From Nitrospirota bacterium (GTDB lineage Bacteria > Nitrospirota > UBA9217): a stretch of 33,730 nucleotides of DNA. Below are positions 7,175 through 33,730 of this stretch, piece after piece (position 1 is the first letter of the stretch; each line of letters opens with the position of its first letter). Location of the stretch: positions 1 to 33,730 of the forward strand of contig JAOUEV010000040.1 of the NCBI GenBank assembly GCA_029858565.1, read 5' to 3'. The translations under genes were made by a program, and so were the position numbers. The notes beneath the pieces are model-generated. The model worked only from the letters and a program-made list of their open reading frames with translations. It had not been told where the DNA came from and made no database searches.

Positions 7175-8380
7175 ATGAAGTTCAACACTATCGAAGAAGC
7201 ACTGGAAGACATTAAAAAAGGCAAGATGGTCATCCTGGTGGATGACGAGGACCGGGAGAACGAGGGCGATCTGACCATGGCAGCAGAGAAGGTGACGCCC
7301 GAGGCGATCAACTTCATGGCCAAGCACGGACGCGGGCTGATCTGCCTGTCCATGACGCCGGAGCGCGTGGAGCATCTCCAGCTTCCCATGATGACCACGG
7401 ATAATACCTCTTCCTTCGGGACCGCCTTCACGATATCCATCGAGGCGAAGAAAGGGGTCACCACGGGCATCTCCGCTGCGGACCGCGCCAGGACCATCAA
7501 GACCGCGATCGATCCCAAGTCCGGTCCCGAGGACCTGGCCCGTCCCGGACATGTGTTCCCCCTTCGCGCGAAGCCGGGCGGCGTGCTGCAGCGCGCGGGC
7601 CAGACCGAAGGGTCCGTGGACCTCGCGCGGCTTGCCGGACTGAATCCCTCCGGCGTGATCTGCGAGATCATGAACGATGACGGCACCATGTCCCGCGTTC
7701 CTCAGCTGGTGGAGTTCGCCAAGAAGCACAGCATGAAGATCGTAACGGTCAAGGACCTGATCGCCTACCGCGTCAAAAAGGAGTCGCTGGTCCGGCGCGC
7801 GGCCGTGGTGAGCCTGCCCACTGCCTACGGTGACGAGTTCACGGCGATCCTGTACAGCAACGATATCGACCGTCAGAGCCATATCGCGCTCGTCAAGGGG
7901 GACATCAAGGCCGGCGACGAAGTGATGGTCCGCGTCCACTCCGAATGTCTGACCGGAGATGTGTTCGGGTCGCTCCGCTGCGACTGCGGTGAGCAGCTGC
8001 ACAACGCCATGAAAATGATATCCCAGGAAGGCAAAGGGGTGATCCTCTATATGCGGCAGGAAGGCCGCGGGATCGGGCTGGAAGGCAAGCTCAAGGCCTA
8101 TGAGCTCCAGGACAAGGGCAAGGACACGGTCGAGGCGAACCTCGCGCTGGGCTTCAAGGCGGACCTCAGGGACTACGGCGTGGGCGCTCAGATCCTGCGC
8201 GATCTTGGCATCCGCAAGATCAAGCTCCTGACCAATAATCCCAAGAAGATCATCGGCCTCGAAGGATACGGTCTTACGGTCACGAAGCGGCTCGCGATCG
8301 AGATGCATCCGCATCCCAAGAACGTGCATTACCTGAAGATCAAGAAGAGCAAAATGGGACATATACTGGAGAAAGTGTAG
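7175..8380 (+). CDS. ribBA: RibBA, bifunctional DHBP synthase / GTP cyclohydrolase II
   Basis: The 401-residue protein joins two riboflavin enzymes. Residues 1-200 are 3,4-dihydroxy-2-butanone 4-phosphate synthase, with the acidic active-site motif [11 protein letters not shown] (23-33) and the HGRGLIC block. Residues 205-401 are GTP cyclohydrolase II, with zinc ligands Cys258, Cys269 and Cys271 in the block after VRVHSE, and RQEGRGIGL near 294-302. It supplies both precursors of riboflavin. Catalytic residues of both halves look intact. ATG 7175 follows an AAGGTGAGG ribosome site. Confidence 0.96.
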
Positions 8381-8537
8381 CCAATTGCGGATTTCGGATT
8401 GCGGGATGCGGATTGGAAATCAGAGCAAGGGCTAACAATTTGAAGTCGAATATATCTGCGGTAGGCCGATACAAAGGCAGGCAGCGGAATTCGGAATGCG
8501 ATAGTAAATCCGCAATCCGAAATCCGCAATCCGAAAT
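8381..8537. repeat. Word-repeat inverted element B (GCGGATT family, ribBA-ribH gap)
   Basis: The left arm 8381-8415 iterates GCGGATT/TCGGATT words. The right arm 8506-8537 iterates AATCCGC/AATCCGA, the reverse complement; over 20 consecutive bases can pair. About 90 unrelated bases lie between. The element begins right after the ribBA stop and ends at the ribH ribosome site. A short single copy of the same word occurs at 7138-7152. Confidence 0.88.
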
Positions 8538-8552
8538 GTTCCGGAGGAACTC

Positions 8553-31766: not shown

Positions 31767-31832
31767 TTTACCAGAGAATAACTCCTCCTGCTCCATCCCC
31801 GGAAAATACCCCGCCCAAAGTACAACTTTAGA

Positions 31833-31861
31833 TTGACAGGCCCCGCAATTTATGGTGTAAT
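31833..31861 (+). promoter_or_regulatory. Sigma-70 promoter of the transglutaminase-like gene
   Basis: TTGACA (31833-31838), 17-base spacer, TGTAAT (31856-31861). It gives a leader of about 150 bases before ATG 32021. Confidence 0.72.
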
Positions 31862-32020
31862 GCACCCCACCTGTAGTCGCATTATCTTCTTTATCCCGTA
31901 GAACCACAACTGAATAGTCAGGATTATAGTCAGGATGTTTCAATCCGGCCAGCCGAGCTATGCGCTCAGACGGCTGAAAATTAATGTGCTTGTGGAGCAA
32001 TTTTGGGGAGGCAGGAATCG

Positions 32021-33730
32021 ATGAAGCTTTTTATCAGGAATATCAGAATACTTTCATCTATTGTACTCTTTTTCTTTCTTTGGTCTTTTGGACCGCTATT
32101 CCAGATTCCGACGGCGATCGCTGCTGATAAGAAAGCGCCGGCGAAACAAACTGCTGGTATCGCATCGCAGGGGCCTGTCTCGTCCGGCGAAAGGTTCGAG
32201 AAAGCTCTGGAGTCGATCCGGGAGAATATCGAGCGGTCAGAGAAAAAGTTCGACAAAGGCGAAGACGACAAGGCGGAGCAAGAGCATATCCGGTCAAAGC
32301 GGGCGGAGATAGACTCGATCGATGCTGAACTGCGGAAGGAATTCAGCGAGACCGAGAAAAAGCTGAAAAGCGCGAAACTGCCGAAGGAGATCCTGGATCG
32401 CCATGCCAAGTTCGTGAAGCATTACGAGGATAATCTCAAAGAACTGAAGTCGAATATGGAAGCAGTAGAGCGGTCAGCAATAAGCGGTAAGCAGGAAAAG
32501 AAAAATGCGCTGGCAAAAGCGAAGCTGCATCTTGAGAAGACAAAAGCGCCTTCGCGGCATCAGAAACTGGACCCGAACAATCTGCCCTTCCGCAACCGGA
32601 AGGAAGTAAAGCCGATCGCGCCGAGGTTGAAGAAGGAGCAGTTCGAGAAGGATTTTCCGTCGAAGAAGAACCGGGGAACCAGAACGGCTTTTTCACCGCA
32701 GAGGTCGCAGAGAACTGCTGAAAACCGCACGCAGAACGGCTATCTCGCGCAGAGCCCGCTGAGTACGCAGAGGACGGCAAGTCTTTTGGACGCGGATCAA
32801 AGCGGATGGACGCGGATTCTGGATTCTTCGTTGCATCGATACATTTCACGTTTCACGTCTCCCGTTTCACGTGTGCAGCTCGCATACAACGGCCCCGCCA
32901 GCGACATGCCTTTTGAGCTCCCTCGCCCCTCCGTGGGAGAGGGCTTGGGTGAGGGGGTTGTTCCGCTTCCCAATTTTGTCTTCTCCGATGCAAATCCTGA
33001 ATCTTCTTTCTCCGCGTCCCCCAGTCTTCGTGTCGCCGCGTCCGGGTCGCTGATGCTCGCTCAAGCGACCGTCGATCTGCCGACAGCAGACGACCTTGCC
33101 GAGACGCCAGATGTTCAATTCACGCCCGAAATCCAGGCTAAGGCGCAGGAAATAGGCGGTAATCCGGTCAAGATCTACGAATGGGTGCGAAACAACATCG
33201 AATATGCTCCAACCTACGGCAGCATCCAGGGTGCGGACCAGTGTCTCCAGTCGAAGATTTGCAACGACATGGATACAGCCAGTCTGCTGATTGCCCTTCT
33301 CCGGACATCCGGCATTGCGGCGAAATATCAGTATGCGACGGTCGAAATCCCGATTGAACAGGCCATGAACTGGGTCGGCGGGGTGACCGATCCGAAGATG
33401 GTCGGGACGATCTTCGCGACGAACGGTGTTCCGGTAACGCTCATGAAGAACAGCAGCAGCGTTTATAAGGCCGTACAACTGGAACATATATTTGTGCAAG
33501 CATTTATCGACTATATCCCGAGCCGCGGTGCGGTGCATCGGCAGGGTGATACCTGGATCTCGCTCGATCCGTCGTTTAAGCAGTACAACTACACCCAGGG
33601 GATCGATATCAAATCAGCCGTGCCGTTCGATGCACAGACCTTTGCCGATCAACTTGTAGCAACAGCAACGACAAACACGGTCGAAGGGTATGTCACGAAC
33701 GTCAATTCCGCGCTGGTTCAGCAGACCATG
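32021..33730 (+). CDS. Secreted coiled-coil and transglutaminase-like protein (3' end beyond the window)
   Basis: The frame is open from ATG 32021 (GGGGAGG site ten bases upstream) to the right edge, at least 570 residues. A signal peptide is visible (hydrophobic about 11-33, cleavage after AIA). Residues about 55-190 are a Lys/Glu-rich coiled coil. Residues about 222-345 are a low-complexity linker that looks assembled from intergenic repeat words. From about 375 a transglutaminase-like domain follows (YEWVRNNIEYAPTYGSIQGAD, then CNDMDTASLLIALLRTSGIAA and EIPIEQAMNWVGG). This domain type often precedes RHS/YD repeats in very large surface proteins; the rest is not visible. The catalytic Cys position may be Asp in this subfamily, so activity is doubtful. 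Confidence 0.85.
   Translation, partial: MKLFIRNIRILSSIVLFFFLWSFGPLFQIPTAIAADKKAPAKQTAGIASQGPVSSGERFEKALESIRENIERSEKKFDKGEDDKAEQEHIRSKRAEIDSIDAELRKEFSETEKKLKSAKLPKEILDRHAKFVKHYEDNLKELKSNMEAVERSAISGKQEKKNALAKAKLHLEKTKAPSRHQKLDPNNLPFRNRKEVKPIAPRLKKEQFEKDFPSKKNRGTRTAFSPQRSQRTAENRTQNGYLAQSPLSTQRTASLLDADQSGWTRILDSSLHRYISRFTSPVSRVQLAYNGPASDMPFELPRPSVGEGLGEGVVPLPNFVFSDANPESSFSASPSLRVAASGSLMLAQATVDLPTADDLAETPDVQFTPEIQAKAQEIGGNPVKIYEWVRNNIEYAPTYGSIQGADQCLQSKICNDMDTASLLIALLRTSGIAAKYQYATVEIPIEQAMNWVGGVTDPKMVGTIFATNGVPVTLMKNSSSVYKAVQLEHIFVQAFIDYIPSRGAVHRQGDTWISLDPSFKQYNYTQGIDIKSAVPFDAQTFADQLVATATTNTVEGYVTNVNSALVQQTM

Follow-up and report, generated by a model that had tools for sequence, protein, structure and literature searches.

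How does a reading frame come to run unbroken through a series of unrelated, repeat-like phrases of a kind that otherwise lies between genes? The question is raised by a secreted protein gene at 32021–33730 (+ strand) of a 33,730-nucleotide stretch of Nitrospirota DNA, here called the window, which makes up the entire contig C102 of a 3.9 Mb genome in 144 contigs; the named genomes nearest to it are Nitrospirota MAGs, GWC2_57_13 and Hainich H41-bin024 among them. The gene encodes a signal peptide, a coiled coil, a linker and a transglutaminase-like domain, and is truncated by the contig end. A first-pass annotation had singled out the segment between coil and enzyme domain (32688–33050) as either a protein linker built from noncoding repeats or a site where such elements accumulate because a disordered linker tolerates them. 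The frame is indeed open for the whole gene, being stop-free from 32003/32021 to 33730 (576 codons), with GGGGAGG upstream of the ATG at 32021, and each of the remaining five frames of 32688–33050 contains at least one stop. For the linker by itself an open frame is unremarkable, because 9% of shuffles of the segment are also open in a given frame. No Rfam family reaches its gathering threshold in 31800–33730.

The N-terminal helical (coiled-coil) domain (32183–32539, +) is conserved among orthologues and corresponds to helices at residues 50–168 of a structural model. The transglutaminase-like core domain (33119–33571, +) matches PF01841 with 40.6 bits, above the curated cut-off of 23. In a putative Cys-His-Asp triad, H484 and D511 are nearly invariant and C409 is variable (G in L060–L062). 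The region in which the catalytic Cys is expected (window ~33260–33310, ICNDMDTASLL) is unconserved, with GNAFDTASLL in the same three loci, and His484 and Asp511 are conserved; judged from these residues, the domain may be inactive. The coil-transglutaminase gene also occurs as neighbouring paralogues, both on contig C99 of this genome (L157, 626–4066 and 7268–8509, −) and in three copies at G003:C12:31071–47445. On C99 the paralogue's reading frame runs open for 1147 codons, and that contig may also carry the continuation of the window gene.

A variable linker between two conserved domains

Seventeen loci were aligned, namely the window gene with its paralogue and fifteen relatives. Apart from two frame-damaged or truncated records, they agree well over the coil and over the enzyme domain, and not over the linker in between. 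Linker length ranges from 41 to 155 residues, with 41–58 in the distant loci L046, L060, L061 and L062, 86–155 in close orthologues and 148–155 in this genome. Because the distant short-linker orthologues have both domains, the expansion of the linker came after the architecture of the window gene. At equivalent slots the words themselves differ: CGCAGAG in the window is matched by CACAGAG (L056), TGCGGAG (L045), CAAGGGT (L046), ACGCGTA (L057) and AGTCAGG (L058). A GC-rich palindrome lies at a common site, SDxPxxLPRP, in the window gene, L056, L033, L044 and L045; its right arm reads GEG in some orthologues and VRGG or VRGD in others, that is in two frames, so that it is the DNA element and not the peptide that recurs. 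By a lag-7/8 array measure, five of the 14 linkers tested, including L055 and L060, contain no array. The same-genus genome G001 has no close orthologue and hence gives no clean empty site for the window gene in a close relative. Within the coil, the paralogue L043 (KLALSEIEGESKG) and L055 (KLALSKVEGTAD) each carry a further in-frame repeat-like insert, presumably of the CCCTGAGCGAAATCGAAGG type, which lies outside the counts given here.

Between the own-genome paralogues, the word block has accumulated 14 nonsynonymous and 6 synonymous changes, where neutrality would give 15:5, and the enzyme domain 12 and 46; small as these substitution counts are, the two regions differ (Fisher p = 1.7e-4). 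By this measure the word block looks neutral, and purifying selection is indicated for the enzyme domain, whose omega is 0.06. Because dS is lower in the word block (0.14) than in its flanks (0.38 and 1.0), the paralogues have probably exchanged this stretch. The AlphaFold model, which is of low confidence for the full protein (mean pLDDT 59, pTM 0.36) and has as its best PDB match the putative cysteine protease 3isr (E = 2e-3), gives a pLDDT of ~27 and no secondary structure at residues 208–345, equivalent to 32657–33070 (+) and bracketing 32688–33050, and the linker is accordingly predicted to be disordered. Predicted disorder and a neutral-looking word block both agree with the suggestion that a disordered linker tolerates repeats. 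Conservation at the amino-acid level under purifying selection, the mark of an ordinary domain, was looked for in these comparisons; what the orthologues display is an unconserved segment of differing length and wording.

Words of the linker and their copies in the genome

The named words lie, to within a few bases, where the first-pass annotation had placed them, and occupy five slots on the + strand. Slot 1 (32691–32775) holds CGCAGAG-type word arrays (TTTTTCACCGCAGAGGTCGCAGAG... and TCTCGCGCAGAG...CGCAGAGGACGGCAAG), with CGCAGAG starting at 32697, 32706, 32748 and 32766. Slot 2 (32789–32817) is made of GACGCGGAT words starting at 32789 and 32809; the orthologue L056 has CACGGAT words here, and the paralogue L043 an extra in-frame 27-nt insert of another type (TCCCCGATTAAGTCATTCGAGGAC). 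Slot 3 (32841–32872) is a TTTCACGT heptamer array in its stop-free orientation, with starts at 32844, 32851 and 32865 and copies elsewhere in the genome (C62:92204, C85:90513 and C66:18206); its period is 7, the CGCAGAG words being looser. Slot 4 (32918–32957) is the palindrome CCCTCGCCCCTCC...GGGTGAGGGG, with arms CTCGCCCC at 32922 and GTGAGGGG at 32949, which has same-site copies in orthologues and further own-genome copies at C135:46946, C126:14574 and C41:410 and in NuoG. Slot 5 (33007–33044) contains CCGCGTC words starting at 33012 and 33036, with own-genome matches at C60:1851, C137:18685 and C17:13062; in other orthologues AACTCCG, AATCCGA or GTCTCAG words stand directly ahead of the enzyme domain. 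An example of the resulting linker peptide is TASLLDADQSGWTR. At −24.4 kcal/mol and z −1.9, the slot 4 palindrome qualifies as a real hairpin. Strong RNA structure across the whole linker was considered and rejected, as only the palindrome folds clearly and the CGCAGAG block folds worse than shuffles.

A BLAST search of the home genome with the 381-nt segment returned the paralogue and ~40 short matches, many of them intergenic, which cover most of the named phrases; one, at C14:148760, extends over 32 nt at 97%. Genome statistics were taken from a sample of 432–434 kb, comprising twenty 20-kb stretches and the window, in which genes were called with a simple in-house gene finder. With the noncoding part of this sample the segment has 48 11-mers in common, where 811 coding segments of the same length average 17.5; only 2 or 3 of these reach its score, and several of the highest-scoring ones themselves contain word arrays. 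Of this linker, 7% lies in lag-7/8 tandem arrays; in the remaining orthologue linkers with arrays the share is 7–29%, and in the transglutaminase part 0%. Across the genome sample such arrays cover 3.4% of noncoding and 0.2% of coding sequence, a few of the 'coding' arrays possibly sitting in over-extended gene starts (e.g. the N-termini of CimA, LspA and MlaE).

When each phrase was compared with dinucleotide shuffles in the 432-kb sample, CGCAGAG pairs (10 observed vs 0 shuffled), TTTCACG arrays (3 vs 0) and the CCCTC palindrome (2 sites vs 0) were enriched, and GACGCGGAT pairs (7 vs 5) and CCGCGTC pairs (4 vs 2.8) were not. CCGCGTC nonetheless has four own-genome BLAST matches of 34–38 nt at 79–84%. 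The asserted resemblance to intergenic word repeats is thus borne out by the dispersed copies, the 11-mer sharing and the three enriched phrases, and GACGCGGAT and CCGCGTC taken singly are not enriched; the failure of these two also led us to reject the idea that the word families are single tight consensus repeats.

Tandem arrays of period 7 and 8 are mostly noncoding and absent from shuffles, period 7 being the commonest and period 8 second. Period 7 also dominates in most of the sampled family genomes, each of which has many different words. Special selection of the words as stop-free was rejected: noncoding arrays contain 0.0244 stop trinucleotides per site vs 0.0277 in composition-matched shuffles, and stop-poor words need no special explanation because composition accounts for most of the effect. 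Elsewhere in the window, the longest heptamer array (GAGACGA/CAAGAAA, 195–376) overlaps an ORF that is open at the contig start. The spacer at 8381–8552 is an intergenic counterpart of the changing words in protein slots: together with its equivalents in relatives (L124–L136), it has different heptamer words, often as inverted pairs, or none; it lies between genes at 7175–8380 and from 8553, which we take to be ribBA and ribH.

Word arrays in loops of conserved enzymes

A scan of the own-genome sample for period-7/8 arrays inside genes led to conserved enzymes. The hisF gene (L081:7699–8553, −), whose product is a curated family match, contains an array at L081:8042–8075, the AATCCGC words of which lie in a loop that is absent from HisF-LUCA. 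Comparison with family loci (L084–L096) and phylum loci (L163, L171–L175) places a word-like insert of 15–39 nt between LFLS and WEVYTHGGR in 12/12 readable family genomes. The words differ between genomes (AATCCGC, ACTCCGC, AACTCAG, AACTCTG and others), and in G002 the slot holds an unrelated palindrome instead. Within genus g6, flank identity is 0.83–0.90 and insert identity 0.38–0.67. Period 7 is significant (p ≤ 0.01) in nine of the 12 family loops and, outside the family, in six genomes that represent three families of the same phylum, with two adjacent arrays in L173–L175; other families have a plain loop. Six further loops, which the pattern used did not read, stand outside these counts. 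One HisF insert reads LSESAIGNPQSAMWEVYTHGGR.

The trpE gene (L069:5944–7428, +) likewise contains an array at L069:6545–6575. In the loop before SNFTQ, period-7 arrays are found in 8/8 close orthologues (family loci L097–L104), each with p ≤ 0.02 against codon shuffles, and the words again vary (GGGTCAA, GGCGTCA, GGGGTCA, AAAGTTC, GCGTGAG and others). In a NuoG-like complex I subunit (L066:1908–4463, −), two in-frame palindrome-derived peptides, PSPPAGEGRGEG and PPLSSGERTEVRGQ, one site being at L066:3571–3605, lie in loops relative to 7p63_G, the best solved relative. Words are also present at the NifE–NifN junction of this genome (L078:18152–18183) and near the junction of the two enzyme domains of MurU-AmgK (L072:13063–13097), where they occur in 3 of 12 genomes, the linkers of the others being plain and shorter. 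Since loops of HisF, TrpE and NuoG also show words, the phenomenon is wider than disordered linkers. Neither a target-site duplication nor a mobility enzyme was found; at the HisF and TrpE slots no such duplication was noticed, and the precise empty site of a recent insertion is lacking there.

Origin of the words and relation to known repeats

The reading we prefer, with a probability of about 0.82, is that repeat words entered the flexible linker in frame and were kept as a sequence-neutral spacer. Repeat DNA of this kind would arise or land genome-wide, with most copies staying in spacers, and copies within genes would persist only if their net length keeps the frame, the array is stop-free in the frame used and the extra peptide is tolerated, as it would be in domain linkers, surface loops and N-termini. 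Because many such arrays are open in several frames, only net-frame-keeping events would be retained. In the window gene, 7- to 9-nt word arrays and a GC-rich palindrome would have entered the frame successively at several linker slots, which can lie side by side because the linker is long and predicted to be disordered; the words would survive, since any open and soluble spacer, within loose limits of length, would serve. Tolerant loops may in the same way take up, keep and exchange repeats of intergenic type. We infer three things: the words came in as copies from elsewhere, cells translate the segment, and its only role is that of a spacer. The first-pass proposal of a linker built from noncoding-type repeats is supported in this form, the direction from intergenic DNA to gene being for most words the presumed one.

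That the arrays instead arose in place is possible, if doubtful: polymerase slippage in a tolerant linker would make and re-homogenise 7-nt arrays, and the same slippage wherever DNA is neutral would lend them their intergenic look. The dominance of period 7 in most sampled family genomes is what slippage would produce, and several HisF words share their register and are only a few bases apart (AATCCGC, ACTCCGC, AACTCNG), as expected of a word sweeping an array. However, slippage does not readily account for long linker matches to distant own-genome copies (32 nt at 97%), for complex palindromes that recur in unrelated genes or for the unrelated palindrome in the HisF slot of G002, and steps of one 7-nt word would shift the frame. 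For at least some words, copying is favoured by the length of the intergenic matches and by the palindromes that recur; the register common to the HisF words fits slippage.

The remaining explanations fare worse. A fusion, in which the genes for a coil protein and a transglutaminase were joined by read-through of a repeat-bearing intergenic spacer, would fit the words near two-enzyme-domain junctions in MurU-AmgK and NifEN, but is very unlikely given that the two-domain protein with a 41–58-residue linker already exists in other families and phyla (L046, L060, L061, L062). We consider it highly improbable that the gene is a pseudogene or an assembly artefact, even though the contig end at 33730 cuts it and the C99 paralogue has a very similar enzyme domain: its 576 codons lack a stop, the paralogue is open over 1147, the orthologues are intact, those from independent assemblies show a like linker, and the enzyme domain bears the signature of purifying selection noted above. 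An ordinary conserved domain or functional motif, to which the recurrence of SDxPxxLPRP at the palindrome site in several orthologues might point, is hardly credible for a segment of unconserved length and sequence, predicted disorder and neutral substitution ratio, with a palindrome whose right arm changes frame between orthologues.

Beyond capture at single sites, we tentatively suggest that a process active in Nitrospirota might swap or rewrite heptamer arrays as units within conserved frames, such that slot, register and array length persist over phylum-scale time and the word changes; loops of HisF and TrpE, and multidomain linkers, would then be standing docking sites for repeat DNA.

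Heptanucleotide repeats are familiar from cyanobacteria, whose STRR are of this class. Others are GGGAATC in Xanthomonas, with related repeats in Nostoc (PMC4692102), and TAACTGA in Beggiatoaceae (PMC4679880); earlier work reviewed in the latter paper reports that, of all such repeats, those of 7 nt are the most frequent in most bacterial genomes. The words described here resemble these repeats in being tandem 7-nt units, mainly intergenic and genome-wide, but differ in that there are many words in place of the one or few fixed consensus words per genome of the STRR type, and in having in-frame copies at fixed slots in conserved enzymes. A closer parallel for the changing word is the P6b loop of the cyanobacterial trnL intron, in which a 7-nt word, TDNGATT or NNTGAGT, has been replaced repeatedly between lineages (PMC4476775). 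There too one fixed slot in a functional gene has its word type swapped, although P6b is an RNA stem-loop and the slots here are protein-coding loops and linkers.

In-frame capture is known from the palindromic elements that Rickettsia carries within coding genes (Ogata et al., 2000, 2002; Claverie and Ogata, 2003; via PMC6649704 and PMC5896051). These elements share with our words in-frame insertion of dispersed repeats into unrelated genes, a tolerated extra peptide and drift over time; unlike them, the present elements are short degenerate heptamer or octamer arrays and small palindromes of many types, several to a linker, and their word type differs between species at the same slot. Instead of a single long palindromic family with a common consensus we find mixed arrays, most of them non-palindromic, and a 40-nt palindrome. 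Enterobacterial RU-1/2/3 and Coxiella QMITEs have also been found in frame (PMC2759123, PMC5896051), and here too intergenic repeats supply coding sequence, but RU elements (103–168 bp) and MITEs contrast with the 7–9 nt units in arrays of ~20–60 nt and the 40-nt palindrome seen here. In the open-licence literature we came across no account of a fixed slot in conserved proteins at which heptamer arrays change their words. In-frame capture and heptamer repeats are thus each known, and changing heptamer words at a fixed protein slot appear to be new.

Whereas earlier cases of in-frame capture mainly concern single element families such as the Rickettsia palindromes, here a whole vocabulary of intergenic words supplies loops and linkers, and the word type changes between species at one codon position while the flanking codons are conserved. 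For annotation, this is a warning that variable peptides such as PSPLAGEGGGEG and SAIRNPQSA are read-through repeats and not motifs. More broadly, the findings suggest a general route from junk-like DNA to protein; they offer an instance, open to direct test, in which noncoding DNA turns into protein sequence, and they can serve as a marker of a heptamer-repeat process that is poorly understood.
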